Part shown: positions 9,339-54,740 of the stretch, piece after piece
Position numbering within the stretch: position 1 is the first letter of the stretch
Layout: the number at the start of each line of letters is the position of its first letter
DNA from: Desulforegula conservatrix Mb1Pa
GTDB taxonomy: Bacteria > Desulfobacterota > Desulfobacteria > Desulfobacterales > Desulforegulaceae
Length of the DNA stretch: 64,000 bases
Direction of reading: 5' to 3'
Assembly: GCF_000426225.1 (NCBI RefSeq)
Contig: NZ_AUEY01000016.1
Coordinates: 1 to 64,000, forward strand
Made by a program: the position numbers and the translations under genes
The notes under the pieces: generated by a model
What the model saw: the letters and a program-made list of their open reading frames with translations, nothing else
What the model was told of the DNA's origin: nothing
Databases searched by the model: none

Positions 9339-9540
9339 GATTCTAAATCCTTGGGGAATAGAGTTCTTACCTGGGTTTTAAAGAGAAACGTTGTTTTCAT
9401 ATCATAAAAAGAAACTAATTCAAAAAATAAACGTCAATTTAAATAAAAATTTTGTAACTATTTCCTATAATGACTTTTAATAGATTTTTTTTGAAAGAAG
9501 TTCTTCAAAAAAATGCAGTAAAATAAATGATGGACGAATT

Positions 9541-9897: not shown

Positions 9898-9947
9898 TAT
9901 ATAATGAGAAGTTATTATGATAAAATTCTGTGGTTTTTGAAAGCCTT

Positions 9948-16853: not shown

Positions 16854-17633
16854 TTACCCTGAGCACCCGCAGCCATGGGACATTATTTTTTGCATTGTTT
16901 CTGCTTTTGCTCTGTCTCCGTTTCTTGTTATGATTTCCTCTGAAACAGGGATAGAAGTTTTTGCCATTTTCTGGGCTTCACTCACAAGTACAACCATTCC
17001 CGCGCAGCAAGGTACTTCCATTCTTGCTATGGTAATAGATTTTATGCCATTTCCTGCAAAAATCTGGGCAAGTTTTTCTACGTGCATTTTGCTGTCATCG
17101 AATTTCGGGCAGCCCATTAATACGATCTTGTCTTTTATGAAGTCTCTGTGCAGATTCGCGTATGCAGCAGCAGAGCAGTCAGCCAGAATAAGAAGCTCGG
17201 CATTTTTCAGATAAGGCGCGTTCGGAGGAACAAGTCTTATCTTGAGAGGCCAGTTGGCCAGTTGGGATTCTGCTATCGCCGTGCCATGATTGCTTGCAGC
17301 TTCTGGCTTAGCCATAGGCTTTAATGTCATGATTGAAGAAGACGGACATCCGCATCCTGTGTGCTTTGGATGCTCTGATTTCTTCTTCATGTCCTCAAGA
17401 TGCTTGTGTACTGCTTCTTCATCAAACGGATCAGCTTCTCTTTCTATGATTTTGAGAGCGTCCTGGGGGCATGAGCCCATGCAGGCTCCGAGTCCGTCAC
17501 AGAACATGTCTTTAATAACCTTTGCTTTGCCGTTTATTATCTGTATCGCGCCTTCAGCACATGAAACCACGCAGTTGCCGCATCCGTCGCATTTGTCTTC
17601 ATTTATTTCTATTATTTTGCGTATTGTTTTCAT
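16854..17633 (-). CDS. Ferredoxin-domain iron-sulfur protein next to hcp
   Basis: A 259-residue protein. The N-terminal 70 residues form a ferredoxin domain: first motif CDGCGNCVVSC, second CDGLGACMGSCP, where the second cysteine is replaced by Leu. A Cys-containing linker (HTGCGCPSSS) leads to a C-terminal domain (about 120-259) with CPKFDD, VPCCAGM and the terminal HGCGCSG. Proteins of this type are often found next to hybrid cluster protein in anaerobes and probably feed it electrons. The start codon and direction match the hcp transcript, with a 329-base spacer rich in hairpins between them. Confidence 0.78.
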   Translation of the reverse strand: MKTIRKIIEINEDKCDGCGNCVVSCAEGAIQIINGKAKVIKDMFCDGLGACMGSCPQDALKIIEREADPFDEEAVHKHLEDMKKKSEHPKHTGCGCPSSSIMTLKPMAKPEAASNHGTAIAESQLANWPLKIRLVPPNAPYLKNAELLILADCSAAAYANLHRDFIKDKIVLMGCPKFDDSKMHVEKLAQIFAGNGIKSITIARMEVPCCAGMVVLVSEAQKMAKTSIPVSEEIITRNGDRAKAETMQKIMSHGCGCSG

Positions 17634-17689
17634 TTTCTTTCTCCTTCATTTTAAAACTTGATGGCCTCATATTTTATATTTGGGCCACG

Positions 17690-23151: not shown

Positions 23152-24537
23152 CTACAAAGAGCAAGTTCTGCCAAGCGTATGCCTGAGAGCTGTTTCAAGA
23201 TCCGGTTTTAAGAATACATAACCTGATCCGAGCAATTTTGACGGAATAACACGGCTACTGGCAAGAAGAATTTCGTCTGCCATCTGTCCGAATGCGGCTT
23301 TAAGTATTATTTCGGGAATATCAGTAAATGCCGGTCGTTTCAGAATCTTTGAAAGAACTTCAACGAGCATTTTGTTTGTAACTGGTTCCGGGGCAACAAG
23401 ATTAACTTTGCCTGTCAAGGAATCATTAAGCATTATATGGTAAATTGCTCCGATTACATCATCCATGGAAATCCACGCCATATACTGATTCCCATTTCCT
23501 GTTTTTCCGCCAAACCCTGCCTTGAAAACTGGAAGCATTTTGGATAAAGCTCCGCCTTCCGGAGTCAGAACAACACCAATTCTGGCAATAACAAGCCTTA
23601 TACTCTTTTTAAGATTGTCAGATGCTGATTTTTCCCAGGCATCACAGAGATCTGATATAAACAGATTTCCCTTGGACGTTTTTTCGGAGAGAATTATATC
23701 TCCCCTGTCTCCATAAAAGCCGGTTGCAGAAGCAGAAATAAAGACTTTTGGCGGGTTTTTCAGGGTATTTAAGGCCTTTGCCAGAAGAGCTGTTCCTTTG
23801 GTTCTGCTTTCTATGAAAACTTTCTTTTTTTCAGGAGTCCATTTGCTGTCGCCTATGTTTTCACCTGCAAGATGAATTATGGCGTCAAATCCTTCAAGTT
23901 CGTCCGAATTAATAATTCCCTCTGACGGATTCCAGAAAATCTCATTTTTATTAAAAGGCTTTCTTCTAACCAGTTTATAGACCTCATGGCCTCCTGTCGT
24001 AAAAAAGGGAGCCAGATTTGATCCTATAAGGCCGCTTGCCCCGCTTATCAGAATCTTCCATGTTCCGTGCTTTTTTTTGAACTCCATGTGTCTGGAAATA
24101 TCGCTGGTAGTCAGCTCATGTCTGTATCTGAAAATTTCAGTCAGCTTTGAGCGGATTTTGCCCTCAAGCAGAAAGTCTCCCAAATAAGAAAAAGGAGCTT
24201 CTAATTCAATTTCGTCTGTCAGCAGGCATTTGCCATCAGAAGAATCACTGAATATATGAGTATGCCTCCAGCTCTTCAGCGGGCCATGTATCTGAATATC
24301 CCTGAACATGCTGTTTATTTCATAATCAGTGTGAAGGGCTGTCCATCTGTAAGGAACCGGCCCTTCGTGCATGATCATTTTTGTTATTGATCCTGGCGAG
24401 ATTCCACCTTTTCGAATGATCTTCAATGGATCCCAGGGAGGGCTAAGCCTTTCAAGTGCTCCGTCCCTTTCGTGCCAGGAAAAAAGCTCGTGCTTAGGCG
24501 CGTCCATTATAGAACTGTATCTGAATATTTTTTTCAT
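23152..24537 (-). CDS. SRPBCC domain fused to TIGR01777-family NAD-epimerase
   Basis: A 461-residue fusion. Residues 1-150 form an SRPBCC/START-like ligand cavity (FRYSSIMDAPKHELFSWHER, LKSWRHTHIF). Residues 160-461 form an SDR epimerase: ILISGASGLIGSNL (NAD site), IIHLAGENIG, SASATGFYGDRG and the C-terminal DUF1731-like segment. The single-domain form is known as YfcH/SDR39U1; the N-terminal fusion is a recognised variant. Substrate unknown. It starts 2 bases after the stop of the serine acetyltransferase gene, so the two are co-transcribed. Confidence 0.85.
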   Translation of the reverse strand: MKKIFRYSSIMDAPKHELFSWHERDGALERLSPPWDPLKIIRKGGISPGSITKMIMHEGPVPYRWTALHTDYEINSMFRDIQIHGPLKSWRHTHIFSDSSDGKCLLTDEIELEAPFSYLGDFLLEGKIRSKLTEIFRYRHELTTSDISRHMEFKKKHGTWKILISGASGLIGSNLAPFFTTGGHEVYKLVRRKPFNKNEIFWNPSEGIINSDELEGFDAIIHLAGENIGDSKWTPEKKKVFIESRTKGTALLAKALNTLKNPPKVFISASATGFYGDRGDIILSEKTSKGNLFISDLCDAWEKSASDNLKKSIRLVIARIGVVLTPEGGALSKMLPVFKAGFGGKTGNGNQYMAWISMDDVIGAIYHIMLNDSLTGKVNLVAPEPVTNKMLVEVLSKILKRPAFTDIPEIILKAAFGQMADEILLASSRVIPSKLLGSGYVFLKPDLETALRHTLGRTCSL

Positions 24538-24539
24538 TT

Positions 24540-25490
24540 TTACCTGAATATAAGCTTTGGATTTTCAATAAATACCCTTGTGCCAGGCGGAACTGATTCA
24601 GTAAGCCAAACATTGCCGCCAATTACAGATCCTGAGCCGATCACTGTTCCTCCACCGAGTATGGTTGCGCCGGAGTAAATTACAACTCCATCCTCAATTG
24701 TCGGATGCCTTTTTATTGTTTTGAGTTCATCCATTTTATCTTTTGGCAGAGAAAGAGCACCAAGCGTAACGCCCTGGTAAATTCTCACATTATTGCCGAT
24801 ATTTGTTGTCTCGCCTATGACGACGCCTGTTCCATGATCTATGGCAAAGCTTTTGCCTATTGTGGCTCCAGGGTGAATGTCGATTCCTGTCACTGCATGT
24901 GCGTATTCCGACATCATTCTTGGAAGAAGAGGAACCTGAAGTTCATAGAGTCTGTGTGCGGCTCTGTGAACCATTGTTGCAAAAATGCCGGGATAACTGA
25001 AAATTATTTCGTCATGGCTTTTTGCGGCAGGGTCTCCATCGTACATTGCCTTTATATCAAGGGCGAGCATTTTTCTGATTCCGGGGATGGATTCGAAAAA
25101 TTCAAGCGCAATTTCAGCGCCCTTGTTTCTGCAATCATCGCACAGACGTTCAAATCTGGAACATTCATGCCTTGTAGCGCAGACAATCTGTTCGTAGAGC
25201 AAGTCAAAAAGAATGGAAAGAGATTGCCCCATATTGTAGTTCATGTTCTGGGGCGTCATTCTTCTTCTGCTGAAAAACCCAGGGAAAAAAATATTTCTAA
25301 GCCTGTTTATTATCTGGATCACGTTTTCCTGGGACGGGATAGGCTCGAAATCTATGTGAGTATAAATATCCGGATCAAGCGTGGAGTCTATGATTCCGTT
25401 TATGAGCGAGTGCAGCTTGGTCTTCGCATTTTCGAGACTGTCTGTGTTGCATTCGCACTGAATGCTTCCCGAATCTCTTAATATTATCAT
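24540..25490 (-). CDS. cysE: Serine O-acetyltransferase (CysE/EpsC type)
   Basis: A 316-residue enzyme. The N-terminal half is helical; the C-terminal 130 residues are a left-handed beta-helix of hexapeptide repeats (IDIHPGATIGKSFAIDHGTG, IGETTNIGNNVRIYQGVTLG, IEDGVVIYSGATILGGGTVI). The DH and HG around GTG carry the catalytic His. It makes O-acetylserine from serine and acetyl-CoA for cysteine synthesis. The long N-terminus resembles EpsC/SrpH-type SATs. It precedes the epimerase fusion by 2 bases. Confidence 0.87.
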   Translation of the reverse strand: MIILRDSGSIQCECNTDSLENAKTKLHSLINGIIDSTLDPDIYTHIDFEPIPSQENVIQIINRLRNIFFPGFFSRRRMTPQNMNYNMGQSLSILFDLLYEQIVCATRHECSRFERLCDDCRNKGAEIALEFFESIPGIRKMLALDIKAMYDGDPAAKSHDEIIFSYPGIFATMVHRAAHRLYELQVPLLPRMMSEYAHAVTGIDIHPGATIGKSFAIDHGTGVVIGETTNIGNNVRIYQGVTLGALSLPKDKMDELKTIKRHPTIEDGVVIYSGATILGGGTVIGSGSVIGGNVWLTESVPPGTRVFIENPKLIFR

Positions 25491-25537
25491 GGCTTGTCTC
25501 CGATTTAGAGTTTATCCTGCTCTTTGAGATAATTCTG

Positions 25538-25690
25538 ATGGTCTTGCAAAAAGTCAGAAAAGAACGCCAGCGTCATGCCGGACTTGATCCGGCATCTTTG
25601 TATTTTCAGGTGATTCTGGATTCCAGCTCCCGATTTTCACAGGGACAGGCCCCGCTGGAAGACGGTAATCGGACTTTTTGCTACCTTCTC
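25538..25690 (+). repeat. MITE-like element, copy 2
   Basis: GATGGTCTTGCAAAAAGTC to CTACCTTCTC, about 153 bases, slightly longer than the others. Flanked on both sides by AATTCT, a perfect 6-bp direct repeat. Confidence 0.85.
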
Positions 25691-25960
25691 AATTCTAATC
25701 TCTGATTGAAATATGGCAACCCATGCTTTCTGGTTTGGATTATCTGTTTTTTTCTGGCTTAAAAAAACAAGCCATAAACTTACAATACTTTTTGTTTTTT
25801 GTCGTCTGAAGACTGACTGTCATGATCAATAAAGGAAAAAGATTAAATTTCTTTAAAAAATGACCAGTCTGATTTATGGGTATATGATCGTATATAACAT
25901 GAATTTTGCCACGGCTTTTTCTTATATTTAAACCAATAAAAAGCATTAACGGAGGGACAT

Positions 25961-26320
25961 ATGACTAATAATGTCGTTATTACAGTATCATGCGGAACAG
26001 ACGATCCTAACCGCGCCACAAGGGCTATTCATTTGGCGACAGTCGCGCACAGGGAAGGCCGGAACGTTACCCTGTTTCTTCTCGATGAAGCGGTTTATCT
26101 TGCGAAGGAAGGCCTTCTTGAAAATCTGAAGGCGGCCACAGGAGATTCAGCAGACGATCTGATGACCTATCTCCAGGCTAACGGCGTGCCTATTTTGGCA
26201 TGTACTCCATGTGCAAAGGCAAGAAGAATCACAGATGCTGATCTTATTGAAGGAGCAAGGATGGGAACAGCGGTTGAGCTTATCAATCTTATTGCGGATG
26301 CTGCAGTTATAAATCTCTAA
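25961..26320 (+). CDS. DsrE-family protein
   Basis: A 119-residue protein of the DsrE/peroxiredoxin-like fold: VVITVSCGTDDPNRATRAIH with a beta-alpha start, and ILACTPCAKARRI around residue 75, where paired cysteines may handle sulfur. DsrE-type proteins carry persulfide in sulfur relay. GGAGGGACAT stands before the ATG. It is single, facing right, between the cysteine-synthesis gene and a frameshifted J-domain gene. Confidence 0.8.
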   Translation: MTNNVVITVSCGTDDPNRATRAIHLATVAHREGRNVTLFLLDEAVYLAKEGLLENLKAATGDSADDLMTYLQANGVPILACTPCAKARRITDADLIEGARMGTAVELINLIADAAVINL

Positions 26321-26344
26321 GTTTTCTTTATATGCTTTAACCAT

Positions 26345-26476
26345 GATGGACTCGCAAAAAGTCTGAAAATGGCTTAATCGTCATGATGGACTTGATTATG
26401 ATCTTTGTAATTTCAGCCGCTTATGGATTCAGGCCTGCGCCGGAATGACTGTAATAGGACTTTTTGCGACCTTGTC
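26345..26476 (+). repeat. MITE-like element, copy 3
   Basis: GATGGACTCGCAAAAAGTC to GCGACCTTGTC. Flanked on both sides by AACCAT, a perfect 6-bp direct repeat. Confidence 0.85.
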
Positions 26477-26547
26477 AACCATGTTTATCCGGGCCGGGGT
26501 TTCCAGATCCCTTCCCGGACAACTTCAAGTATTTTTTGTGGCAGTTT

Positions 26548-26885
26548 ATGACTCATACAGACAAATTATTAAAAGACAGGGCCATTGCAGTTATGGGAAT
26601 TCCCCCCGGCACAGATGAAAGCGGACTCAAATATGCCTATTACAGGCTGATGTTTCAATATCACCCTGACAGAAATCCAAGCAAAGAATATGCCCATGAG
26701 ATGACCTCACTTATTTCAGAAGCCTTTCAGGAAAGAATATCAAACCTATTCTTTTGCATGATTTTGATCTTGTTTCCAAGATTGCAGGGAAACCGCCAGA
26801 AGAGATAAAAGGTATGATGACCTATGATGAATGGCTCAGGAATCAGTTTTATAATATGGAGGGTAAATCCATCTGGTCTTATTGA
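26548..26885 (+). pseudogene. J-domain (DnaJ-like) protein, frameshifted
   Basis: The first frame from ATG 26548 encodes a J-domain with the HPD motif (MFQYHPDRNPSKEY). Around 26728-26734 (GAAGCCTTTCAGG) the likely continuation moves to another frame: SGKNIKPILLHDFDLVSKIA followed by GMMTYDEWLRNQFYNMEG and a stop at 26885. One missing T would restore a single protein of about 112 residues. Either a real one-base deletion or an assembly error. J-domain proteins stimulate DnaK. Confidence 0.65.
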
Positions 26886-27099
26886 TCGGGTGGATTAGAG
26901 GGTTCTTCCATAGTCCTATACAAGTTCGATATGCCACATAAACAACTGCATCAACTGAGCCTTCATGAAAAGGCATTTCTTCGGCTCTTACGATGATTTT
27001 TTTCATCTCGTCGGTTGCAGAGCCTATTGCCTCTTCAGATATGTCGAGACTATATATATTTTTTAAATATGACCGGGCCGCAGCCTTGTGCTGAGAACG
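26886..27099 (-). pseudogene. Degenerate SAM methyltransferase fragment
   Basis: On the minus strand one frame reads YSLDISEEAIG followed by RAEEMPFHEGSVDAVVYV, the motif post-I and motif II/III pattern of class I (methyltransferase type 11) enzymes. Upstream the reading is broken by frameshifts and stops (WNRNEIALINAGYILIHLG lies in another frame), and no start is found. It is a remnant beside the frameshifted J-domain gene, so this stretch looks like decaying sequence. Confidence 0.6.
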
Positions 27100-27610
27100 T
27101 CATTGGTTTTACCAAGATGAATTAGAATATACCCCGCGTTAATCAGAGCTATTTCATTTCTATTCCAAAAGTCAATATTTGTATTTCAGATCTGATTTCT
27201 GGAAATCCATTCTGGGAAAAACTTTGATTTTTGGTGAATCCATATCATGAAATTTTTTGCGGAGCTTTTTCAAAAAGTGACCCTCCGGCGGCCTTTCAAA
27301 TCAATGCACTCTCGATTTAAAATTGAAATTGCTTCTTGCCAGAAATTGATCTGACCCAATTTATATAGCGTTTTGTGTCTTCAGCATCCATTTTTGCCCC
27401 AGTTTTTATTGCCTTCAAAGCTTGACAAAATTATATATGGGCATATGCTCATAATGAGAATTAAAAAACAAGATTAGAGTTGGTTTATGATTTTGAAGCT
27501 TAGATGTTTTAGAGAGTTTGCACAACGGGCGAACGAATATATGGCAGTCAGGGTGAAGCCTTTTTTGAACAATAAAGTGATTGGAGCTAATGCTCAAGTC
27601 TATCAATTTT
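27100..27610. other. Intergenic stretch without recognisable gene
   Basis: AT-rich sequence with a GCGGAGC..AAAAAGTGACC hairpin module at 27259-27292 and no convincing open frame. The short leftward frame ending at 27415 has poor composition and overlaps repeat sequence. Confidence 0.5.
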
Positions 27611-27743
27611 GATGGACCAGCAAAAAGTCTAAAAAGGGCATTGGCGTCATGCCGGACTTGATCCGGCATCTTTGTATTTTTAATTCTTTCTGGGTTCCGG
27701 CCTTCGCCGGAATGACGGGAATCGGACTTTTTGCGGCTTTGTC
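27611..27743 (+). repeat. MITE-like element, copy 4
   Basis: GATGGACCAGCAAAAAGTC to GCGGCTTTGTC, with GTCATGCCGGACTTGATC and CTTCGCCGGAATGACGGG inside. Flanks AATTTT and AATCCT match at four of six positions. Confidence 0.82.
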
Positions 27744-27915
27744 AATCCTGATGGCTTTGGCAATAGTGGGCGGCAAAGGATGCTGTCCGCAGATACTTTT
27801 GATTGTTTTGATGGGAACCAGACCGAAAGCTGCACATAATGTTTTTTAGAGAAAAAAGAATTGTGCTTATGGGACAGTTACCATGGCTGATATTCGAAGA
27901 TATGGAGACTAAAGA

Positions 27916-29613
27916 ATGGAAAAACTAAAGATTGTAGTTATTGGTGGAGTCGCTTGCGGCCCAAAAACCGCGGCAAGGATAAAAAGGCTTAAACCAGATG
28001 CCGACGTAACCGTAATTGAAAAGAAAGAGCTTCTTTCATATTCGGGATGCGGACTTCCTTATTATCTTTCAGGGGAGATCAAAGATCACAAAGAACTAAT
28101 GGCAACTCCAGTCGGAATAGTAAGGGACACACATTTTTTCAAGGTTGTGAAAGATATTCGTGTTTTGAACCAGACATTTGCCAAGTCTGTGGCCAGGGCC
28201 GCAAAAAAAGTCACGACTGTAAATACGATGACAGGCGAGATAATTGAAATACCCTATGACAGACTTGTCCTTGCCGTAGGGAGCACCCCTTTTCTTCCTG
28301 AAATAAAAGGTGTTGATCTTAAAGATGTCTACACCCTGTCAACGGTCGAAGACGCAAGGGAGATCAGGGACAGGCGCGAAAGTCTTAAAGGGAAGAAAGC
28401 CGTAATAATCGGTGGCGGTCTTATTGGCCTTGAAGTTACCGAGGCGTTCAGAATCCAGGGAATGGATGTCACGATTGTTGAAAGGGAGGATACTGTTCTT
28501 CCGTCCCATTCAGACCCCGAAATGGCTTTTCATGTTCATAACGAGTTGAGAGCCAGGGGGGTAAAACTTGCACTGTCTTCCGCAGTCAGTGAAATAAAAG
28601 GCGATGACCAGGGCAAAGTAGTCTCTGTGGTTACCTCAAAAGGCGAAATTCAGGCCGACATTGTTCTTGTTTCTGTGGGCGTAAGACCTAATTCCAGCCT
28701 TGCTAAACAGATGGGCCTTGAAATAGGAACGACCGGAGCCATAAAAACCGATGAATATTTAAGAACGTCAGATCCTGATATTTACGCGGGAGGAGACTGT
28801 TCAGAAGTCTGGAGCAGACAGACAGGAAAGCCGATCTACGCACCGATGGGATCAACCGCAAACAAGCAGGGCAGAATAATTGCCGATAATATCTGCGGAA
28901 TTCCCACAAAATTCAGGGGCGTTCTTGGAACAGTAATCATAAAGATTTTTGGACTGACTTTTGCCTGTACAGGAATGACAGAACGCCAGGCTAAAAATGA
29001 AGGACTTGATTATCTGACCGTTCTGAATCCTTCTCCTGACAGGCCGCATTTCATGGAATCAGCAAAGCTTCTTATCATAAAGCTGATTGTTGACAAAAAA
29101 ACGGGAAAAATTATCGGATCGCAGATGACCGGCCCGGGAGAGGCTGCAAAGAGAATGGACGTGACCGTTTCTGCCATGAGCCAGAACGCCAATGTCTATG
29201 ATCTCGGCCAGTATGACCTTGCCTATGCTCCACCTTATTCTCCGGCCATGGACAACATCATAACCGCGGCAAATATTGCCGAAAACAAGATCTCAGGAAT
29301 TGCAAAGGGCTACAGCCCTGCCGAAGTAATGGAAAAAATCAGAAAGGACGATGACTTCATTTTTCTTGATGTGAGAACCCCGGACGAATTCGCCCAGGTC
29401 AGGATTCCTGACAAACGCGTTAAACATATTCCGCTTGGGAAACTGAGACAGGCCGTGGGGGATCTGCCAAAAAACAAGGAAATAATTACTTTTTGCAAGA
29501 TTTCATTAAGAGGCTACGAGGCCCAAAGAATCCTTGAAGGTGAAGGTTTCGGGAATGTTTCCTTTCTTGATGGCGGAGTGGTTTGCTGGCCTTATGAAAA
29601 AGAAGGCGTGTAA
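27916..29613 (+). CDS. CoA-disulfide/persulfide reductase with C-terminal rhodanese
   Basis: A 565-residue flavoprotein. FAD-binding VVIGGVACGPKTAA at the N-terminus, redox-active Cys45 (SYSGCGLPYY), NAD-binding VIIGGGLIGLEVTEAF near 160, YAGGDC near 295, a dimer domain, then a rhodanese domain (about 455-560) with Cys527 (TFCKISLRG). It belongs to the CoADR-Rhd / NADH-dependent persulfide reductase family, which reduces CoA disulfide or persulfides and polysulfide. The next gene starts 2 bases later, so it is in the same transcript as the MinD-ferredoxin pair. This ties sulfane-sulfur chemistry to the ORP-like genes downstream. Confidence 0.9.
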   Translation: MEKLKIVVIGGVACGPKTAARIKRLKPDADVTVIEKKELLSYSGCGLPYYLSGEIKDHKELMATPVGIVRDTHFFKVVKDIRVLNQTFAKSVARAAKKVTTVNTMTGEIIEIPYDRLVLAVGSTPFLPEIKGVDLKDVYTLSTVEDAREIRDRRESLKGKKAVIIGGGLIGLEVTEAFRIQGMDVTIVEREDTVLPSHSDPEMAFHVHNELRARGVKLALSSAVSEIKGDDQGKVVSVVTSKGEIQADIVLVSVGVRPNSSLAKQMGLEIGTTGAIKTDEYLRTSDPDIYAGGDCSEVWSRQTGKPIYAPMGSTANKQGRIIADNICGIPTKFRGVLGTVIIKIFGLTFACTGMTERQAKNEGLDYLTVLNPSPDRPHFMESAKLLIIKLIVDKKTGKIIGSQMTGPGEAAKRMDVTVSAMSQNANVYDLGQYDLAYAPPYSPAMDNIITAANIAENKISGIAKGYSPAEVMEKIRKDDDFIFLDVRTPDEFAQVRIPDKRVKHIPLGKLRQAVGDLPKNKEIITFCKISLRGYEAQRILEGEGFGNVSFLDGGVVCWPYEKEGV

Positions 29614-29615
29614 AA

Positions 29616-30476
29616 ATGAAAATTGCTGTGGCAAGCGGTAAGGGCGGAACAGGGAAAACCACGGTGGCTTTGGCACTTGCATCATCATTTGAAGGAGAGA
29701 TCATTTATCTGGATTGTGATGTTGAAGAACCAAACGCTCATCTTTTTCTTAATCCTGAGGTGGAAAAGGCTGAAACCGTTTATTCCTTCGTTCCCCTTGT
29801 GAATGAGAGCAAATGCACTTTATGCGGAAAATGTGATGATATATGCAGATTCAGCTCTATCGTCATAATGGGCAGGAAACTTGTCACTTATCCTGCCATG
29901 TGTCACGGTTGCAGAGGTTGCGAGCTTGTATGCCCTGAAAAGGCTATCACCGCCGGCAAGAGAGAGCTTGGGACAATTGCGCAGGGGCGTTCCGGGAATA
30001 TTAACCTTCTTACAGGCAGGCTCAGAATAGGCGAAGCCATGTCTCCGCCGCTCATCAAGCATCTCAAATCACTTATCCCTGAATCTGCGAAGCATATAAT
30101 TTCAGATGCTCCTCCGGGTGCCTCATGTCCTATGGTGGCAACAGTCAGGGACGCTGACTTTGTGCTCCTTGTCACTGAACCCACGCCATTTGGCATAAAC
30201 GATCTTTCAATAGCTTTTGAGGCCCTGAGGGAAATGAATCTTCCATGCGGACTCATAATAAACCGCTCCATGCCGGGAAACAGGACAGCGCATGAATTTG
30301 CGGAAAAGAATAATATCAGAATTCTTCTTGAAATCCCGGATGACAGGGCCATAGCCGAAGGATATTCCAGGGGCGCCCTTATCACTGAAACAAGACCTGA
30401 GCTCAAGTCCGGGTTTATTTCAGTATTCAAAAAGATCGGCGAAATAATATCCGCTGGCAGGGAGGCATACCCATGA
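29616..30476 (+). CDS. MinD/ParA-family ATPase with inserted 2[4Fe-4S] ferredoxin domain (ORP-type)
   Basis: A 286-residue P-loop ATPase with deviant Walker A GKGGTGKTT (residues 8-16) and an inserted ferredoxin domain at 65-112: Cys67/70/73/77 (CTLCGKCDDIC) and Cys96/99/102/106 (CHGCRGCELVC). Switch II is DAPPGASCP. Pairs of such proteins belong to the orange protein (ORP) complex of Desulfovibrio and relatives. It starts 2 bases after the CoADR-rhodanese gene and its stop overlaps the paralogue start by 4 bases. Likely handles metal-sulfur cluster delivery or cell-division-linked positioning; the exact role is not known. Confidence 0.88.
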   Translation: MKIAVASGKGGTGKTTVALALASSFEGEIIYLDCDVEEPNAHLFLNPEVEKAETVYSFVPLVNESKCTLCGKCDDICRFSSIVIMGRKLVTYPAMCHGCRGCELVCPEKAITAGKRELGTIAQGRSGNINLLTGRLRIGEAMSPPLIKHLKSLIPESAKHIISDAPPGASCPMVATVRDADFVLLVTEPTPFGINDLSIAFEALREMNLPCGLIINRSMPGNRTAHEFAEKNNIRILLEIPDDRAIAEGYSRGALITETRPELKSGFISVFKKIGEIISAGREAYP

Positions 30477-31345
30477 AGGAACTTGTCGTAATAAGCGGAA
30501 AAGGCGGGGCGGGCAAAACAAGCATAACAGCGAGCCTTGTCGTTCTTGCCGGAAAAAGTGTTATCGTGGACGCAGACGTTGACGCGGCTGATATGCATCT
30601 TGTGCTGCCCCTGAAAGAAACGTGCAAATTTCCTTTTGAGGCAGGTTTTGCTGCTGTTCTTGATACGTCAAAATGTACTGAATGTGGCTATTGCCGGGAA
30701 GTCTGCCAGTTTTCTGCAATTAACGAAAAATACGAAATAGACCATATTCTCTGCGAAGGATGTGGAGTCTGCGCCCATTTTTGTCCTTCGGGCGCAATTT
30801 CCATGCAACTTAAAACATGCGGTGACTGGTTTGTGTCTGAAACCCCTTTCGGAACCATGATGCACGCAAGACTTTTCCCAGGAGAAGAAAGCTCAGGGCT
30901 TCTTGTCAGCAGACTCAGACAGGAAGCAAGAGCCAGGGCGGAAGCCGGCGCTATTGATCTTTGCATAACAGATGGGCCTCCTGGCATAGGGTGCCCGGTA
31001 ATTGCTTCTATAACAGGGGCGAGTCTTGTTCTTGCCGTGGCGGAACCAACCATATCGGGCATTCATGACGTTAAGAGAGTTAAGGAGCTCGCCGGATTTT
31101 TCAGAATTCCCGTGGTTCTATGCATAAATAAAAGCGGCCTTAATCCTGAAATTGAAACAGAATTCAGAAAATGGGCTGCGGTCAACAAGGTGCCTGTTGT
31201 CGGAGAGATTCCATATGACAGCGATGTGACAGCAGCCATGATGGCAGGCAAAACAATCGTTCAGCATTCCGGCGGCAAACCTTCCAGAGCGATCAGCCTT
31301 TTGTGGGAGGAATTAAAGGCGAGCCTTGAATTGGGCGGCGTTTGA
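30473..31345 (+). CDS. MinD/ParA-family ATPase with ferredoxin domain, second copy
   Basis: A 290-residue paralogue: Walker A GKGGAGKTS at residues 9-17, ferredoxin insert Cys68/71/74/78 (CTECGYCREVC) and Cys94/97/100/104 (CEGCGVCAHFC), switch II DGPPGIGCP. The ATG overlaps the previous stop (ATGA) and has GGGAGG upstream. The two differ enough to suggest a heterodimer, as proposed for the ORP ATPases. The operon appears to pause here: a MITE copy and a strong hairpin lie before the NifX-like genes. Confidence 0.88.
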   Translation: MKELVVISGKGGAGKTSITASLVVLAGKSVIVDADVDAADMHLVLPLKETCKFPFEAGFAAVLDTSKCTECGYCREVCQFSAINEKYEIDHILCEGCGVCAHFCPSGAISMQLKTCGDWFVSETPFGTMMHARLFPGEESSGLLVSRLRQEARARAEAGAIDLCITDGPPGIGCPVIASITGASLVLAVAEPTISGIHDVKRVKELAGFFRIPVVLCINKSGLNPEIETEFRKWAAVNKVPVVGEIPYDSDVTAAMMAGKTIVQHSGGKPSRAISLLWEELKASLELGGV

Positions 31346-31350
31346 TAGTT

Positions 31351-31483
31351 GACAAAGTAGCAAAAAGTCAGATTGCCGTCATTCCGGAGCAGGCCGGAAT
31401 CCAGAAGTGGCTGAAATTACAAGGATGCAGGCTCAAGTCCGGCATGACGCTAAAGCCATTTTTTGACTTTTTGCGAGTCCATC
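31351..31483 (-). repeat. MITE-like element, copy 5 (reverse)
   Basis: GACAAAGTAGCAAAAAGTC to GCGAGTCCATC. Flanked on both sides by ATAGTT, a perfect 6-bp direct repeat. It begins six bases after the second MinD gene. Confidence 0.85.
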
Positions 31484-31526
31484 ATAGTTGGCACCTGAAT
31501 CAAAATGGGAGGTCTTGCAAAAGCAG

Positions 31527-31551
31527 GGTGCGTGGCGCTTTCCCACGCACC
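31527..31551. terminator. Strong GC hairpin between MinD pair and NifX-like genes
   Basis: GGTGCGTGG and CCACGCACC pair perfectly around a 7-base loop. No T-run follows, so it may be a processing or pausing site rather than a classic terminator. Confidence 0.4.
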
Positions 31552-31640
31552 GCCTTCGCCAAGCAAGTGGTGCGTGCAAGGACGGCACACCCTACAGTGC
31601 ATGGTTAATAAATGGAATAAACCTTTTATAGGAGGATCAT

Positions 31641-32003
31641 ATGAAAATAGCAGTATCATCAAAAGGGACAGATCTTACATCTGAAATCGATTCAAGATTC
31701 GGTCGCGCGGCTTTTTTTGTGGTCGTGGACTCAGAAACCCTCGATTTTACGGCTGTAGAAAACACCCAGAACCTGAATCTGCCCCAGGGAGCGGGAATTC
31801 AGTCAAGCAAGACTGTGGCTGGGACAGGAGCCGAAATAGTCGTGACTGGAAACTGCGGCCCAAAGGCTTTCACTGCTTTATCAGCGGCCGGAATCAGGAT
31901 CGCGGTCGGATGTACGGGGCGGGTTATTGATGCGGTTCAGCAATGCAAAAATGGCCTTCTTTCATTTGCGGATGAAGCCAATGTCGAAGGTCACTGGATA
32001 TAA
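31641..32003 (+). CDS. NifX/NifB-type (dinitrogenase Fe-Mo cofactor family) protein, ORP-like
   Basis: A 120-residue protein of the MTH1175/NifX fold: MKIAVSSKGTDLTSEIDSRF, then GAGIQSSKTVAGTGAEIVVTG and a C-terminal helix. The orange protein that binds a Mo-Cu-S cluster in Desulfovibrio belongs to this family. AGGAGGATCAT stands before the ATG. It is followed 22 bases later by a second member. Together with the MinD pair and Mrp it forms an ORP-type set; metal content cannot be told from sequence. Confidence 0.85.
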   Translation: MKIAVSSKGTDLTSEIDSRFGRAAFFVVVDSETLDFTAVENTQNLNLPQGAGIQSSKTVAGTGAEIVVTGNCGPKAFTALSAAGIRIAVGCTGRVIDAVQQCKNGLLSFADEANVEGHWI

Positions 32004-32025
32004 AATCTAAAAAAGGAGTAATGCA

Positions 32026-32358
32026 ATGCGTTTTGCCATACCAGTAGCAGATGGAAAGTTAACCCTTCATTTCGGGCACAGCAAGGAATTCATTTTTATT
32101 GATGTTGAAGACGGTGTTTTCAAAAAAACCCAGACCCTTGAACCTCCTCCCCATGAACCAGGTGTACTTCCAAAATGGATGCACGATAACAATGTCAATG
32201 TGATAATAGCTGGTGGAATGGGGCATAAGGCCAAGGAGTTTTTCCTGGGATACGGCATTGAAGTGGTTGTTGGGGCGCCCCAGATTGCAGCAGAAGAACT
32301 TGTTTCAGGGTATCTTAACAAAACCCTTGTTTCAGGACCTAATGCCTGTGATCATTAA
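32026..32358 (+). CDS. NifX-type protein, second copy
   Basis: A 110-residue member of the same family (MRFAIPVADGKLTLHFGHSK, then IIAGGMGHKAKEFFLGYGIE). The two His of LHFGHS and the EPPPHEPG segment could bind metal. AAAAGGAG lies 7 bases before the ATG. It differs clearly from its neighbour, so the pair probably have separate roles in the complex. Confidence 0.85.
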   Translation: MRFAIPVADGKLTLHFGHSKEFIFIDVEDGVFKKTQTLEPPPHEPGVLPKWMHDNNVNVIIAGGMGHKAKEFFLGYGIEVVVGAPQIAAEELVSGYLNKTLVSGPNACDH

Positions 32359-32388
32359 AAAACTGATTATTCTTGTAAATGTATAATT

Positions 32389-32520
32389 GATGGTTTCGTA
32401 AAAAGTCAAAAAAATGCTCGGCGTCATGCCTGACCTGATTGGGTATATTTGTATTTTTAGATATTTCTGGATTCCGGCCTTCGGCTGAATGACGGTAATC
32501 GGACTTTTTGCGACGTTGTC
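32389..32520 (+). repeat. MITE-like element, copy 6
   Basis: GATGGTTTCGTAAAAAGTC to GCGACGTTGTC. Flanked on both sides by ATAATT, a perfect 6-bp direct repeat. Confidence 0.85.
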
Positions 32521-32593
32521 ATAATTTGTCATCTGTTAGTTTTGAGACCCTATTTGTGTGTTAAGCAAAAGTTTTTTAAGGAGTAAGTCAGTA

Positions 32594-33460
32594 ATGATTC
32601 ATGAAAAAATGCCTGATTCAAAATCATCATGCAGCAGCGGATCCTGCGCAAGCTCTAAAAATAATGCGGTCAAGACAAGCGAGGAACTGTCAAAGATTGC
32701 CCTGTCCAGAATCAAATACAAGCTTGTTGTAATGAGCGGAAAAGGGGGCGTCGGTAAAAGCAGCGTAGCCTGCAATCTGGCCGTTTGTCTCGCAAAAAAG
32801 GGATTTAAGACAGGCCTCATGGATGTGGATGTGCATGGGCCAAGTGTAGGCAAGATAATGGGCATGAAGGGCCTCCTGGACGCAAGCGATGATCATATGC
32901 TTATCCCCATGCCTTTTGGTGATAATCTGAAGGTTGTTTCCATGCAATCTCTCCTTCCCCATGAAGATCAGCCCATAATATGGCGAGGGCCGGCCAAGGG
33001 CAATATGATCCAGCAGTTCATAGGTTCGGTTAAATGGGAAGACCTTGATTTTCTTATAATTGACGCTCCTCCCGGAACAGGCGACGAGCCTCTTACTGTA
33101 ATCCAGACAGTGGAAGACGCAAAAGCAGTGATCGTAACCACTCCCCAGGATGTTGCACTTGCAGACGTGAGAAAATCCATCAATTTCTGCAAGACCGTAA
33201 ACATGGAAATCCTGGGTCTTGTTGAGAATATGGGGCCTTTCCCTTGCCCCCATTGCGGAGAGGTCGTCAGCCCGTTCAGCAGCGGCGGCGGTGAAAGAAC
33301 AGCAAGTGAAATGGGTATAATGTTTCTTGGCTCTGTTCCATTTGATACCCAGGTGGTGACTTCATGCGACATGGGCGTTCCCATTGCTGACACCCATACA
33401 AACGGGCCTTTTATGGGAGCTTTTGACGCAATAGTGGAAAAGGCGTTAAAGAATCTCTGA
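32594..33460 (+). CDS. mrp: Mrp/NBP35-family Fe-S cluster carrier ATPase
   Basis: A 288-residue P-loop protein. Walker A GKGGVGKSS near residue 47, DAPPGTGDEP (switch II), and the CPHC pair (FPCPHCGE) near residue 227 that binds a bridging [4Fe-4S] cluster in Mrp/ApbC/NBP35 dimers. An N-terminal Cys segment (SSCSSGSCASS) is an added feature of the anaerobe type. The ATG at 32594 follows AAGGAG. In Desulfovibrio an Mrp-type ATPase is part of the ORP gene set; here it follows the NifX-like pair, separated by a MITE. Confidence 0.92.
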   Translation: MIHEKMPDSKSSCSSGSCASSKNNAVKTSEELSKIALSRIKYKLVVMSGKGGVGKSSVACNLAVCLAKKGFKTGLMDVDVHGPSVGKIMGMKGLLDASDDHMLIPMPFGDNLKVVSMQSLLPHEDQPIIWRGPAKGNMIQQFIGSVKWEDLDFLIIDAPPGTGDEPLTVIQTVEDAKAVIVTTPQDVALADVRKSINFCKTVNMEILGLVENMGPFPCPHCGEVVSPFSSGGGERTASEMGIMFLGSVPFDTQVVTSCDMGVPIADTHTNGPFMGAFDAIVEKALKNL

Positions 33461-33490
33461 TGTTGATTATTTAGTGCTTGTATAAGTATT

Positions 33491-33621
33491 GACAAGGTCT
33501 CAAAAAGTCAGATTTCCGTCGTTCCGGCGCAGGCCGGAATCCAGAAGTATCTGAAAATAATGGATGCCGGATCAAGTCCGGCATGACGCCGCAACCTTTT
33601 TGGGACTTTTTGCGGCCTTGT
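33491..33621 (-). repeat. MITE-like element, copy 7 (reverse)
   Basis: GACAAGGTCTCAAAAAGTC to TTTTTGCGGCCTTGT. The right end differs from the usual GACCATC, so both ends resemble the GACAAGG type. No clear duplication. The following 175 bases (33622-33797) are AT-rich with nothing recognised. Confidence 0.78.
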
Positions 33622-33797
33622 TGCTTTTTCGAATGATCGTCTTTTTCCTCAAGCTCCCATGCCTGTTTGCATCATATTCAAGTTAATCTGTTGTAATCAC
33701 AAAAACAATATACTATATTGCCCGATTCCGCTTCTGACAGCTTGCTTTTTTATCAGAAGTGAATTTTTGAAATTGATAATATTATTAGAGAGTTCTT

Positions 33798-34688
33798 ATG
33801 CGAATAATCACCAGACCCGACTTTGACGGGCTTGTTTGCGCCGTTTTTTTAAAAGCCGCCCTTGGCAAGGATATCCCGGTTTTATGGGTTGAGCCTGATG
33901 CAATAAGGCATTGTGGTCTTGAGGTAAGGCAGGGGGACATAATCGCTAATCTGCCGTGGAAATCCGGGTGCAGCGTCTGGTTTGATCATCATGTCACAAA
34001 CCGTATTGATGAAAAATTCGAGGGCGTTTATGAAATAGCTCCTTCAGCAGCCGGTCTGATTTACACATATTATAAGGATAGGTTCAAAACGGATTTTGCA
34101 GAACTTTCAGCTGCCGCTGACAAAATTGATTCTGCCAATCTGACTGTCGAAGAGGTCTTAAGGCCCGAAGACAATTCTTATCTGCTATTGTCCATGACCA
34201 TAAAGAACCGGGCTGAATGTGAGAAGCATTACTGGGACAGGCTTTGCGATCTATTTCTTGAAAATGGCATAGACGATGTGATGAAAGATTGGGATGTAAA
34301 GGCAAGATGCGATGAGGTCATAAGAGAAAATTCAGAATATAAGGAGCATCTATCCAAGAGGACACAAATAGACCAGGGCGTGGCCCTGACGGATTTTTCT
34401 GATTTGATGATAGCTCCCCAGGGCAATAGATTTCTCGTTTATGCTCTTTATCCTGAAACCCATGTTGCGGTGAAGATAAGGCGTGATTACCATGAAACTG
34501 ACAGCGTTATTGTAAGTGTGGGACATAGTATTTTTAACCGCACCTGCAATGTTAACACAGGATTTCTTCTTTCAAGATTCGGAGGAGGGGGCCACAGGGG
34601 CGCAGGTGCATGCAAGATGAAAATATCCGTGCTGGAAAAGGCTCTGTTCGAGATCATGAATACTCTGAAAGAAAACAAGGCAAGCTGA
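33798..34688 (+). CDS. DHH-family phosphoesterase-like protein
   Basis: A 296-residue protein. N-terminal RPDFDGLVCAVFLKAAL, DHH motif in VWFDHHVTNR and a C-terminal DHHA1 glycine motif FGGGGHRGAGA. The first motif has TRPDFDG instead of the common SHxxPDxDA, as in 'exopolyphosphatase-like' members of the family. It should hydrolyse a phosphoester or phosphoanhydride with Mn; substrate unknown. GAGAG stands before the ATG. A second DHH protein follows at 36220, flanking a Fe-S protein. Confidence 0.8.
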   Translation: MRIITRPDFDGLVCAVFLKAALGKDIPVLWVEPDAIRHCGLEVRQGDIIANLPWKSGCSVWFDHHVTNRIDEKFEGVYEIAPSAAGLIYTYYKDRFKTDFAELSAAADKIDSANLTVEEVLRPEDNSYLLLSMTIKNRAECEKHYWDRLCDLFLENGIDDVMKDWDVKARCDEVIRENSEYKEHLSKRTQIDQGVALTDFSDLMIAPQGNRFLVYALYPETHVAVKIRRDYHETDSVIVSVGHSIFNRTCNVNTGFLLSRFGGGGHRGAGACKMKISVLEKALFEIMNTLKENKAS

Positions 34689-34743
34689 TTTTAAAACATT
34701 CATAGAACATGATGCTTTACTTCATGGTTTTTCAGCAGGTTTT

Positions 34744-34876
34744 GACAAGATAGCAAAAAGTCCGATTTCCGTCATTCCGGTGCAGGCCGGAATCCAGAAG
34801 TATTTGAAAATACAAAGATGCCGGATCAAGTTCGGCATGACGCCGACGCCTTTTTCTGACTTTTTGCGAGACCATC
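34744..34876 (-). repeat. MITE-like element, copy 8 (reverse)
   Basis: GACAAGATAGCAAAAAGTCC to GCGAGACCATC. It ends 29 bases before the start of the Fe-S protein gene; an open frame reads through it, but the gene start is placed after it. Confidence 0.82.
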
Positions 34877-34905
34877 AAGTTTTGAAAGCCAAAAGGACGG
34901 ATCGT

Positions 34906-36210
34906 TTGAGCCAGATAAAGGAAATTGCTTCTTCGATAAAAGCTCTTGAGAATGACCTTTCACTCTGCACAAGATGCGGAATGTGTCAGTCAGTGTGTCC
35001 TCTTTATACTGAAACAGGGAGAGAGCCTGACTCTGCAAGGGGGAAACTTGCGCTGCTCGACGGATTGAGATTTTCTCTTCTTTCAAAACCTGATGGCGTG
35101 ATGGATCTGCTTCAGAGATGTCTTCTTTGCGGAGCTTGTGCTTCGCATTGTCCTCGAAAGGTAAACAGTATTTCTGTTTTTCTAAGGGCAAGGATGATCA
35201 TAGCCGGAATTACAGGTCTTAATCCATTCAAGAAAGCCATATTAAGGGCTGCGTGCAATAATCCCCGGGTTTTTGACATGATTCTTGATACGGCAGGTTT
35301 TTTCCAAAAAAAACTATCGGCGGATATTGCCGGAACGTCTGATTTTTCCTGCATAAGGGATGGATTTAGAAGCAAACAGAGGATTTCCAGAAATTTTGCT
35401 CCAAAGTCGTTTTCTGAAATAACAGGAACGGTCGATTACAGAAGGCAGGGCTCAAAGGGTCGCGTCGCTTTTTATCCAGGCTGCCTTGTCAACAGAATGT
35501 ACCCTTCCATTGGAACCGCCTCGCTTAATGCCATAATAGACTGTGGATACGATGTTGTGATTCCTGATGGTCTTGTCTGTTGCGGAATGCCTGCGGCTGC
35601 ATCCGGTGATATGGGATCAGCCAGGATTGCTGCTGAAAAAAATGCCGAGATTCTAAAAAAAACAGATTGCGACCTGATAGTAACATCCTGCCCGACCTGC
35701 GGTTATGCGATGAAAAAACTCTGGTCTGTGTTCGCAGAAAAATCAGGGCATAATGACTCTTTTGATTATGTTTCTGAAAAGATTTCAGATATTTCAGATT
35801 TTATTATAAGGTATGGAGAAAAAAAATATACCGCCCCAGGGCCTGATTCCGGGTCAGATGACAGAAAGACAGTGACAGTACATGATCCCTGTCATCTTAA
35901 ACGCAGTCTTGGCATTTATAAAGAGCCGAGAATCATCCTTGAAATGGCCGGATACAAAGTGAGGGAAATGAAGAATTCTGACAGATGCTGCGGCATGGGC
36001 GGAACCTTTTCAATCTCGCATTATGACCTGTCAATGTCAGTGGCCGAAGAAAAGAAAAAAGCGGTTATGGACTCAGGGGCTGACGTCCTTGCAGCCGCAT
36101 GTCCTGCCTGCATGATGCAGATTGGGGGGGGGCTTGCTGCTGACGGGTCTGAAATAGATGTACGGCATCCTGTGGAAATTTACGCGGAAAAGATACCTAA
36201 TGTCTTTTAA
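34906..36210 (+). CDS. GlcF/LutA-type iron-sulfur protein with two CCG domains
   Basis: About 434 residues from a TTG at 34906, chosen because AAAAGGACGG lies just upstream and because the frame before it is encoded by a repeat element. Two ferredoxin motifs (CTRCGMCQSVCP and CLLCGACASHCP) are followed by two CCG domains (FYPGCLVNRM to LVCCGMPAAA; VHDPCHLKRS to RCCGMGGTF), the layout of glycolate oxidase subunit GlcF, lactate-utilisation LutA and HdrD-like proteins. It passes electrons from an oxidoreductase; no flavoprotein partner is next to it. It is followed 9 bases later by a DHH gene. Confidence 0.83.
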   Translation: MSQIKEIASSIKALENDLSLCTRCGMCQSVCPLYTETGREPDSARGKLALLDGLRFSLLSKPDGVMDLLQRCLLCGACASHCPRKVNSISVFLRARMIIAGITGLNPFKKAILRAACNNPRVFDMILDTAGFFQKKLSADIAGTSDFSCIRDGFRSKQRISRNFAPKSFSEITGTVDYRRQGSKGRVAFYPGCLVNRMYPSIGTASLNAIIDCGYDVVIPDGLVCCGMPAAASGDMGSARIAAEKNAEILKKTDCDLIVTSCPTCGYAMKKLWSVFAEKSGHNDSFDYVSEKISDISDFIIRYGEKKYTAPGPDSGSDDRKTVTVHDPCHLKRSLGIYKEPRIILEMAGYKVREMKNSDRCCGMGGTFSISHYDLSMSVAEEKKKAVMDSGADVLAAACPACMMQIGGGLAADGSEIDVRHPVEIYAEKIPNVF

Positions 36211-36219
36211 AGAGGGGCA

Positions 36220-37209
36220 ATGAACAATTCGGCATCAGAAAAGCTGAGGAAATTTTACGGCAGATTCTCAAATGATGACAGGGTGCTTATCCTTATCAAT
36301 GCTGATCCTGACGCTATTGCCAGCGCCATGGCCGTCAAAAGACTCTTGTGGCGGAAAGTGGCTTCCTCCTGCATTGCCTCTGTGAATAGAATCAAACGCT
36401 CTGATAACCTTGCAATGATAAAGCTGCTTGGCGTCAAGATTAATTATATTTCAGAAATTGATCCTTTCAGATTTACAAAATATGTAATTGTCGATTCCCA
36501 GCCCGATCATCATGACTGCTTTGGACTTTTCAGACCCTCTGTTGTTATTGATCATCATCCTGAAACATGTGTCTTTGGAGATTTTGTAGATATAAGACCG
36601 ACCTATGGCGCAACAGCTACTATCATGACTGAGTACTTGCGGGCCGCTGCCATCAAACCTTCTGAAAAACTTGCGACCGGTCTTTTTTATGCAATCAAGA
36701 CTGATACGGGTAATTTCGGTCGTCAGACACTGATGAAGGACATAGAGGCTTTTCAGTATCTTTTCAGATTTGCCAATCATCAGCTTGAAAGAAAAATCGG
36801 CCAGACAGATCTCCCCATTGATTTTCTTCCTTATTTTGAAAAAGCTCTCAAGGAAAAGGTTATAAGACGTCATAAGGTCTATGTTCATTTAGGAGATGTT
36901 CCCAATCCTGATGTTTGTGTCCAGATTGCGGATTTTTTCATGCGCCTCAATTCCATGACTTGGAGCATTGTTTCCGGCCTTTTCGATGGAAAGCTCGTCA
37001 TTGTTTTCAGAAACGACGGAATAAGAAGAAGCGCCGGGAATGTGGCCTCTGGAGGATTCGGGGCATATGGGTCGGCCGGAGGGCATAAAAGCATGGCAAG
37101 GGCAGAAATCCCGGTTGATTCTCTTCCTGATTGCGTCAAGCTTACAAGAAAAAGTGATGTCATCAAATGGATCATAAAAAGGGTGACAGCAAGGGCGGGA
37201 AAGTCTTGA
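36220..37209 (+). CDS. DHH/DHHA1 phosphoesterase, NrnA-like
   Basis: A 329-residue enzyme: LINADPDAIASAMAVKRLL near residue 26, VIDHHPETC near 110, TDTGNFGR near 160 and the DHHA1 motif GSAGGHKSMA near the C-terminus. This order is that of NrnA-type nanoRNase / pAp phosphatase proteins. It would remove short RNA dinucleotides or 3'-phosphoadenosine phosphate, the latter a by-product of sulfur metabolism. It follows the Fe-S gene by 9 bases and precedes a metallo-beta-lactamase gene by 13. Confidence 0.83.
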   Translation: MNNSASEKLRKFYGRFSNDDRVLILINADPDAIASAMAVKRLLWRKVASSCIASVNRIKRSDNLAMIKLLGVKINYISEIDPFRFTKYVIVDSQPDHHDCFGLFRPSVVIDHHPETCVFGDFVDIRPTYGATATIMTEYLRAAAIKPSEKLATGLFYAIKTDTGNFGRQTLMKDIEAFQYLFRFANHQLERKIGQTDLPIDFLPYFEKALKEKVIRRHKVYVHLGDVPNPDVCVQIADFFMRLNSMTWSIVSGLFDGKLVIVFRNDGIRRSAGNVASGGFGAYGSAGGHKSMARAEIPVDSLPDCVKLTRKSDVIKWIIKRVTARAGKS

Positions 37210-37222
37210 TGCGGAAGCAGCC

Positions 37223-38008
37223 ATGAAAATAACCATAATCGGATCAGGAACCTGTGTACCGTCACTCGTAAGGAGTTCTTGTTCTGTTCTTGTTCAGGCA
37301 GGAGACAGCAGTATCCTTCTGGATGTCGGTCCAGGAACAATGCACAGGCTGCTTGGGGCAGGGCATCTTATTTATGATGTTGACGCCATCTTATTAAGTC
37401 ATTTCCATCCTGACCATTGCGGCGAGCTGGCTAATTTTCTTTTTTCCACAAAATATCCCCACGCAGGACAGAGGATGGGCAGACCACTAGTTCTTGCAGG
37501 AGGCCCGGGTCTAAGCAGGTTCTATTTTGGTTTGAGAAGCGTTTTTGGGGACTGGATGGACACACCTTGCGGGATTTTCCAGAAAATAGAAATCAGTAAT
37601 GGCATTCCTGAAAGCATAGCTATTGGGGATGCAAAAATATATGCCGCTAAAGTTGAACACAAGCCGGAAAGTATAGCGTATAGAATTGAGTGCGGCGGAA
37701 AGTCCGTGGTTTATTCAGGAGATACTGACTATTCTGAAAGCCTGATTGAACTGTCTATGGGATGTGACGTCCTGATCTGTGAATCTGCAATGCCTGACGA
37801 GAAAAAAGTACCTGGACACCTTACTCCGTCCCTTGCCGGGGAAATTGCCGAACAGGCAGGTGTCAGCCATCTCGTGCTTACGCATTTTTATCCTGAATGC
37901 TCGGAAGTAGATATTGAAAAACAGTGCAGAAGGACATATTCAGGCAAGATAACCTTGGCAGAGGATTTGATGGCTTTGGATTTATGCCTGATGCGGTCTA
38001 ATATATGA
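37223..38008 (+). CDS. Metallo-beta-lactamase fold hydrolase (RNase Z-like)
   Basis: A 261-residue hydrolase. HFHPDHCGEL near residue 60 is the metal-binding HxHxDH motif; SGDTDYSESL gives the bridging Asp and LTHFYPE the last His. The size and motif order fit the ribonuclease Z/phosphodiesterase group, but the tRNase Z exosite is absent, so substrate is uncertain. It is in a run of closely spaced genes with two DHH proteins, suggesting nucleotide or RNA turnover. The stop overlaps the next start (ATGA). Confidence 0.83.
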   Translation: MKITIIGSGTCVPSLVRSSCSVLVQAGDSSILLDVGPGTMHRLLGAGHLIYDVDAILLSHFHPDHCGELANFLFSTKYPHAGQRMGRPLVLAGGPGLSRFYFGLRSVFGDWMDTPCGIFQKIEISNGIPESIAIGDAKIYAAKVEHKPESIAYRIECGGKSVVYSGDTDYSESLIELSMGCDVLICESAMPDEKKVPGHLTPSLAGEIAEQAGVSHLVLTHFYPECSEVDIEKQCRRTYSGKITLAEDLMALDLCLMRSNI

Positions 38009-54626: not shown

Positions 54627-54740
54627 TGTCTTGATATAAAATTGGATTGGTCTTTGGTGACAGAAAGGAGGATGGCGCACTTTGGAACCAGTTTATTCGC
54701 TCATAAATTGAGAACCTGTACGCCATTAAACCGGAAAATA

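Follow-up and report, generated by a model that had tools for sequence, protein, structure and literature searches.

A 64,000-nucleotide stretch of the Desulforegula conservatrix Mb1Pa genome (contig NZ_AUEY01000016.1, positions 1 to 64,000; hereafter the window) contains a gene set of the orange protein (ORP) type, joined at its front to a gene for a fusion of coenzyme A (CoA)-disulfide reductase and rhodanese (CoADR-Rhd). Only 2 bases separate the stop codon of the reductase gene (29613) from the ATG of the first ATPase gene (29616). Genes of this CoADR subfamily are repeatedly linked to ORP sets, in 12 family-level groups: 9 outside the class, the window's own, that of genome G012 and that of G177 and G088. 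Functional coupling of the two is well supported, and the recurrence in distant relatives suggests that the persulfide reductase works for the ORP assembly machinery. The likeliest mechanism would be a local supply of sulfide from persulfide.

The six open reading frames (ORFs) named in a preliminary description of this DNA are open, all on the plus strand, at the coordinates of Table 1, and the 2-base junction claimed there stands. Pfam and NCBIfam models bear out their identities: CoADR-Rhd, two MinD-type ATPases (A and B, or MinA and MinB) with two 4Fe-4S motifs each, two PF02579 (Di-Nase or NifX-type) proteins and Mrp.

Recurrence of the pairing

The phylum sample comprised 395 genomes, with the best 3 CoADR candidates scored in each; a CoADR at E 1e-123 is present in 98, and 93 of these 98 belong outside the class. 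Searched for ATPase A, these 93 contain it in 59 of 80 and then in 10 of 13 cases. Outside the class, 19 of the 52 CoADR genes scoring at least 435 bits lie within 10 kb of ATPase A (15 within 5 kb). These 19 belong to 9 families, and at most 0.36 would be expected. None of the 22 CoADR genes below 435 bits is that close (expected at most 0.17), nor is any of 10 in 10 further genomes, where the nearest lies about 30.6 kb away (positions compared by eye). The 435-bit line was set after the list was seen; without it, 19 of the 74 genes from 59 genomes are linked, or 19 of 84 once the 10 further genomes are added.

We fetched 20 loci outside the class, the 19 linked ones and that of G654 (10.3 kb apart), and 12 of them have CoADR no more than 500 bp from an ORP-set gene. 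In locus L263 the order is NifX-MinA-CoADR-NifU-MinB, with MinA and CoADR overlapping; an Fe-S scaffold and the reductase thus stand together. Other layouts are MinA-MinB-Mrp-NifX-CoADR (L277, L278), MinB-CoADR (L271), Mrp-NifX-CoADR (L282) and a divergent CoADR beside NifX-MinA-MinB-Mrp-NifX (L264-L270). Codirectional neighbours 58-59 bp apart also occur among the linked loci. Recurrence in many layouts and families is as expected if the two functions belong together, and it singles out the layouts with tight operons for study.

Within the class the pairing is rare. A class sample of 291 genomes gave 30 others with a CoADR match at E 1e-150; 20 of these CoADR are at least 59% identical to that of the window, and an ORP set was found in the fetched stretch of G012 alone among the 20. 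G177 and G088, of another family, have a 48% identical CoADR, which follows MinA-MinB-NifX-NifX in the same direction; in G177 Mrp precedes these genes. Altogether 3 of 41 class CoADR genes (at least 440 bits) are within 10 kb of ATPase A, where at most 0.19 would be expected; this count rests on 199 genomes in which the ATPase was located, some of them from the order sample and 40 individually chosen. The search behind the gene-density table scored the best 4 CoADR candidates per genome. Confinement of the pairing to this genome, which the preliminary description named as a refuting outcome, is therefore rejected: it nearly held within the class and was reversed by the wider phylum sample, which brings the linked genomes besides the window's own to 22 (3 in the class, 19 outside).

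The survey was also made from the ATPase side. The order sample has 58 genomes, the window's included, and 50 of them have ATPase A. We fetched 50 neighbourhoods from the 49 other order genomes and 80 loci from a wider scan, 130 in all, of which 127 were usable; 3 were dropped, having no ORF labelled MinA. CoADR lies directly upstream of ATPase A in none of the 124 other loci that have an upstream gene. A CoADR-type gene above 290 bits is present in the fetched stretch of 6 of the 127 (L061, L086, L139, L151, L159 and L195), against 0.53 expected from the estimated gene density. Other neighbours of ATPase A in these 127 loci are DUF5320 (34), a NifU-type scaffold (30), a sigma-54 activator (27), response-regulator-like (20), MBL-fold (14), radical SAM (12) and CGGC (12) genes. 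The NifU scaffold, found in 30 of the 127, supports a theme of cluster assembly.

The CoADR tree has 72 rows and was made by a quick method, with some long branches; on it, linkage needs at least 9 changes, 6 of them forced by starred branches. The distant or low-scoring L060, L064, L086, L169 and L172 and free rows below 400 bits were left out, and 13 duplicate loci were dropped; L159 and L267 (G649), with identical gene lengths, are probably one genome.

The window's CoADR falls among mostly unlinked class relatives on this tree, which fits the view that the genes are merely co-regulated: genes of anaerobic sulfur metabolism sharing a regulator or a neighbourhood, with no biochemical contact between their products. 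In this genome the junction may even be a chance rearrangement between repeats, copies of which flank the CoADR-MinA-MinB unit on both sides, and the divergent layouts (L264-L270, L273, L274) could simply share a promoter region. Against this, many families, several layouts, close codirectional neighbours and one overlap would hardly arise by chance, and we regard mere co-regulation as unlikely.

A predicted persulfide reductase with both catalytic cysteines

The best solved relative of CoADR-Rhd is Npsr/NoxA-3 of Archaeoglobus fulgidus (6pfz, E 2.4e-148), aligned over residues 5-558 of 565. The protein retains both cysteines, on the flavin side within SYSGCGLPY and in the C-terminal rhodanese, in the loop CKISLRG. 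This loop and GGVACGPK mark its group; the sister group, with GGSAAGPK and SMASCGYPY, has the loop in common with it. With the CoA-disulfide reductase equivalog TIGR03385 it scores 396 bits, below the curated cut-off of 578.8. Npsr is reported to convert persulfide or polysulfide to H2S by way of the rhodanese cysteine, then CoA, then the active-site cysteine, and its publication allows for a metabolic function still to be found (PMC7969121). Persulfide or polysulfide reductase activity of the window's protein is predicted from its sequence.

The same gene data and linkage would fit a protective enzyme, one that clears persulfides and polysulfides and keeps the cysteines of the ferredoxin-MinD ATPases and Mrp reduced, with no supply of sulfide. 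A sulfate reducer would already be rich in sulfide, a point in favour of such protection. The A. fulgidus enzyme has been proposed to guard against S0 (PMC7969121). A general protector, however, need not sit inside ORP operons, and the lower-scoring CoADR paralogues, perhaps equally protective, are never linked in either set (0/22, 0/10). Protection is an explanation we consider rather improbable.

The ORP-type proteins

The assignment to the ORP type made in the preliminary description is upheld by the Di-Nase proteins and Mrp. The 120-residue protein has D. gigas (Desulfovibrio gigas) ORP as its best solved relative (2wfb, E 1.6e-20). In the MrpORP model NF041136, positions 265-365 correspond to the 110-residue protein (E 6.8e-35) and positions 1-250 to Mrp (E 3.3e-108), so that MrpORP is present as two genes. 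Of 46 Mrp-type ORFs in the fetched loci, 7 have the two-domain, fused form; here the halves are separate. Mrp retains its C-x-x-C (CPHC). The 110-residue protein keeps HFGH and the final CDH; a serine replaces the HFGHC cysteine, which is kept in 30 of 34 aligned relatives and lost in the other 4. Elsewhere in the genome (C15:8615-8869, L233) a PF02579 match forms the C-terminal part of a 423-residue protein whose N-terminal part resembles, by eye, a NifB-type radical SAM protein.

The two ATPases share 33% identity, and the 8 Fe-S cysteines of ATPase A are invariant (8/8) across 59 aligned sequences. Its predicted fold (pLDDT 96) is a MinD/NifH-like core with an inserted ferredoxin. ApbC is the nearest fold (Z 23.7, 216 residues, 2.9 Å), with FleN, HypB, MinD and BchL close behind.

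This model could be read as a route for electrons: an NADH-dependent flavoprotein would reduce the ferredoxin domains of the MinD-type ATPases, with the rhodanese sensing or tuning, an idea we find very unlikely. The best fold matches include BchL and NifH chains, near MinD, HypB and ApbC, and the ATPases might then relay electrons with ATP as the nitrogenase Fe protein does, which is just as improbable. The fold match is common to the entire MinD superfamily; CoADR-family enzymes are two-electron thiol or persulfide reductases, and we know of no ferredoxin-reductase activity in that family. Both points speak against electron input.

Sulfide supply as the favoured explanation

Our preferred explanation, held tentatively and at slightly less than an even chance, is that a persulfide reductase supplying sulfide has joined an ORP-type metal-sulfur cluster gene set. 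The rhodanese cysteine would accept sulfane sulfur, from polysulfide or from the persulfide of the cell's NifS desulfurase. Bound CoA would ferry the sulfur to the flavin-side cysteine, from which NAD(P)H would free it as sulfide next to the proteins that build the cluster. Using ATP, the two ferredoxin-MinD ATPases together with Mrp would assemble or load metal-sulfur clusters, and the two Di-Nase proteins would hold the finished product. Interaction of the gene products and sulfide as the item passed on are what we infer here, as is the kind of cluster built.

MrpORP is reported to hand Fe-S clusters to Orp3-Orp4-Orp8 (PMC6345978). Combined with the chemistry of Npsr, this makes on-the-spot sulfide for metal-sulfur assembly the simplest reading. 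The preliminary description had proposed that assembly of the metal-sulfide cluster, Mo-Cu-sulfide in the complex known from Desulfovibrio, is fed by sulfane sulfur or thiol redox balance; as a whole this interpretation is partly supported, and both the feeding and a Mo-Cu-sulfide cluster in this organism are putative.

Several observations weigh against sulfide supply. In the class, 38 of the 41 CoADR orthologues are not near ORP sets, and the exact order CoADR-MinA-MinB is in no other locus seen; it appears to be the window's own. Among 80 searched genomes, 21 hold this kind of CoADR and no ATPase match, so CoADR has a life of its own. Of 20 class loci, 5 (L121, L123, L124, L125 and L128) carry a CoADR-Rhd orthologue that is unlinked to an ORP set and is accompanied by a divergent sigma-54 activator no more than two genes away. 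Finally, a NifS desulfurase encoded in the genome offers a sulfur route besides the reductase; it could furnish the persulfide or render the reductase unnecessary. A substitution of CoADR for cysteine desulfurase in this organism is rejected, NifS being present.

A broader version is possible but doubtful: the CoADR-rhodanese subfamily with a CK[IVL]S[LM]RG loop would be dedicated to supplying sulfur to a metal-sulfur cluster factory driven by ATP. The factory would comprise the ferredoxin-MinD pair, Mrp, the Di-Nase proteins and often NifU, and might, with like reservation, build thiometallates such as Mo-Cu-S with sulfide from persulfide. If true, this would also give a physiological task to persulfide reductases in organisms without sulfur respiration.

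Organization of the locus

The ORP set of the window is not a single uninterrupted operon (Table 1). ATPases A and B overlap by 4 bases, and the 295 bases between ATPase B and the 120-residue protein gene contain a copy of a genome-wide repeat. Judged by layout, CoADR-MinA-MinB is an apparent unit, with NifX-NifX and Mrp as apparent units of their own, because repeat-bearing gaps precede the 120-residue protein gene and Mrp. For Mrp we prefer the ATG at 32594, behind AAGGAG, over the listed GTG at 32558.

Table 1. Genes of the ORP-type set and the repeat copies next to them, in window coordinates (aa, amino acids)
Feature	Position	Strand	Family, model or structure matched
CoADR-rhodanese fusion, persulfide reductase type, 565 aa	27916..29613	+	Pfam Pyr_redox_2, Pyr_redox_dim and Rhodanese; NCBIfam
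ATPase A (MinA), MinD-type with inserted 2[4Fe-4S] ferredoxin, Orp3/Orp4-like, 286 aa	29616..30476	+	CbiA/ParA
ATPase B (MinB), MinD-type with inserted 2[4Fe-4S] ferredoxin, 290 aa	30473..31345	+	CbiA/ParA
ORP-like Di-Nase/NifX-type protein, 120 aa	31641..32003	+	PF02579 (E 1.2e-19); 2wfb
Di-Nase protein, stand-alone counterpart of the MrpORP C-terminal half, 110 aa	32026..32358	+	PF02579; NF041136
Mrp/NBP35 ATPase, counterpart of the MrpORP N-terminal half, 288 aa	32594..33460	+	NF041136
137-bp interspersed repeat, immediately ahead of the CoADR unit	27609..27745	+	
137-bp repeat of the same family, between ATPase B and the 120-aa protein gene	31348..31484	-	
137-bp repeat of the same family, before Mrp	32386..32522	+	

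Further copies of the 137-bp repeat lie at 33488-33624, at 34742-34877 and elsewhere in the window, and separate most gene blocks. In the genome it has at least 41 matches; copies may number in the hundreds, since there were 581 first-look candidates, of which 40 were scored. An Rfam scan of 24500-38000 gave no match. Predicted promoters are near chance (17, against a shuffled mean of 13.9), and terminator-like sites number 17 against 8.9.

No sigma-54 activator adjoins the set, as noted from the start. The motif TGGCAC-N5-TTGCW, with up to 2 mismatches, occurs 25 times in the window where 37.7 are expected, not above chance, and it is absent from the gaps directly before CoADR, the 120-residue protein gene and Mrp; no clear sigma-54 promoter is therefore seen. 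The set thus lacks the Desulfovibrio-type arrangement of divergent operons with an adjacent activator and promoters. A sigma-54 activator is near ATPase A in only 27 of the 127 loci, so it is optional and its absence here not unusual. The genome itself has an activator on contig C1 (about 95475-97286, L234), 36-40% identical to most ORP-linked ones. A degenerate NifX-type gene (22.1 bits, under the Pfam cut-off) follows it after 18 bases, at a site separate from the ORP set. With such an activator on C1, regulation of the set from a distance is possible.

Upstream of the set, a stand-alone DsrE-type gene (25961-26320) was rejected as a member, lying 1.6 kb away with repeat copies intervening; its SaoD match, 21.8 bits for a cut-off of 169, is far too low for that identity. 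The translation of the ORF at 26464-26900 resembles, by eye, a truncated J-domain. Elsewhere in the window, two alike stretches of about 365 bp (9537-9901 and 54736-55103; families D7-D10) are 85-94% identical in pieces, and a ferredoxin-like match on the minus strand (17433-17663, L008) contains one in-frame TGA.

Comparison with known systems

The ORP set and Npsr are individually known; a recurrent reductase partner of the ORP set looks new. Our literature searches found no paper joining CoADR to ORP, and a remark in the 2011 paper on the D. vulgaris (Desulfovibrio vulgaris) orp operons is still possible; CoADR is not mentioned in the accessible parts of PMC3897727 and PMC6345978. Both partners are orphans: for the ORP complex, with its strange metal cluster, neither the role nor the source of sulfur is settled. 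Their recurrent joining gives each a testable task.

Among the closest known systems is the ORP complex of D. vulgaris Hildenborough (Orp3, Orp4, Orp5, Orp8, Orp9). Both have two ferredoxin-MinD ATPases, an ORP-like Di-Nase protein and Mrp with its Di-Nase domain. Unlike the D. vulgaris genes, which form two divergent operons, those of the window run in one direction, with CoADR-Rhd in front. Both halves of the Mrp and Di-Nase fusion MrpORP (Orp9) are present here, unfused and with the HFGHC cysteine lost. IssA, the thioferrate protein of Pyrococcus furiosus, is also a metal-sulfide-binding member of the Di-Nase family, according to PMC6345978 and PMC9431491. It is archaeal, and the 110- and 120-residue proteins of the window show, by eye, no cationic tail. 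Npsr shares with CoADR-Rhd the CoADR fold with its catalytic cysteine and the C-terminal rhodanese cysteine. It differs in the loop, CAIGLRS in the solved A. fulgidus chain, and the window's enzyme is further set apart by standing with ORP genes.

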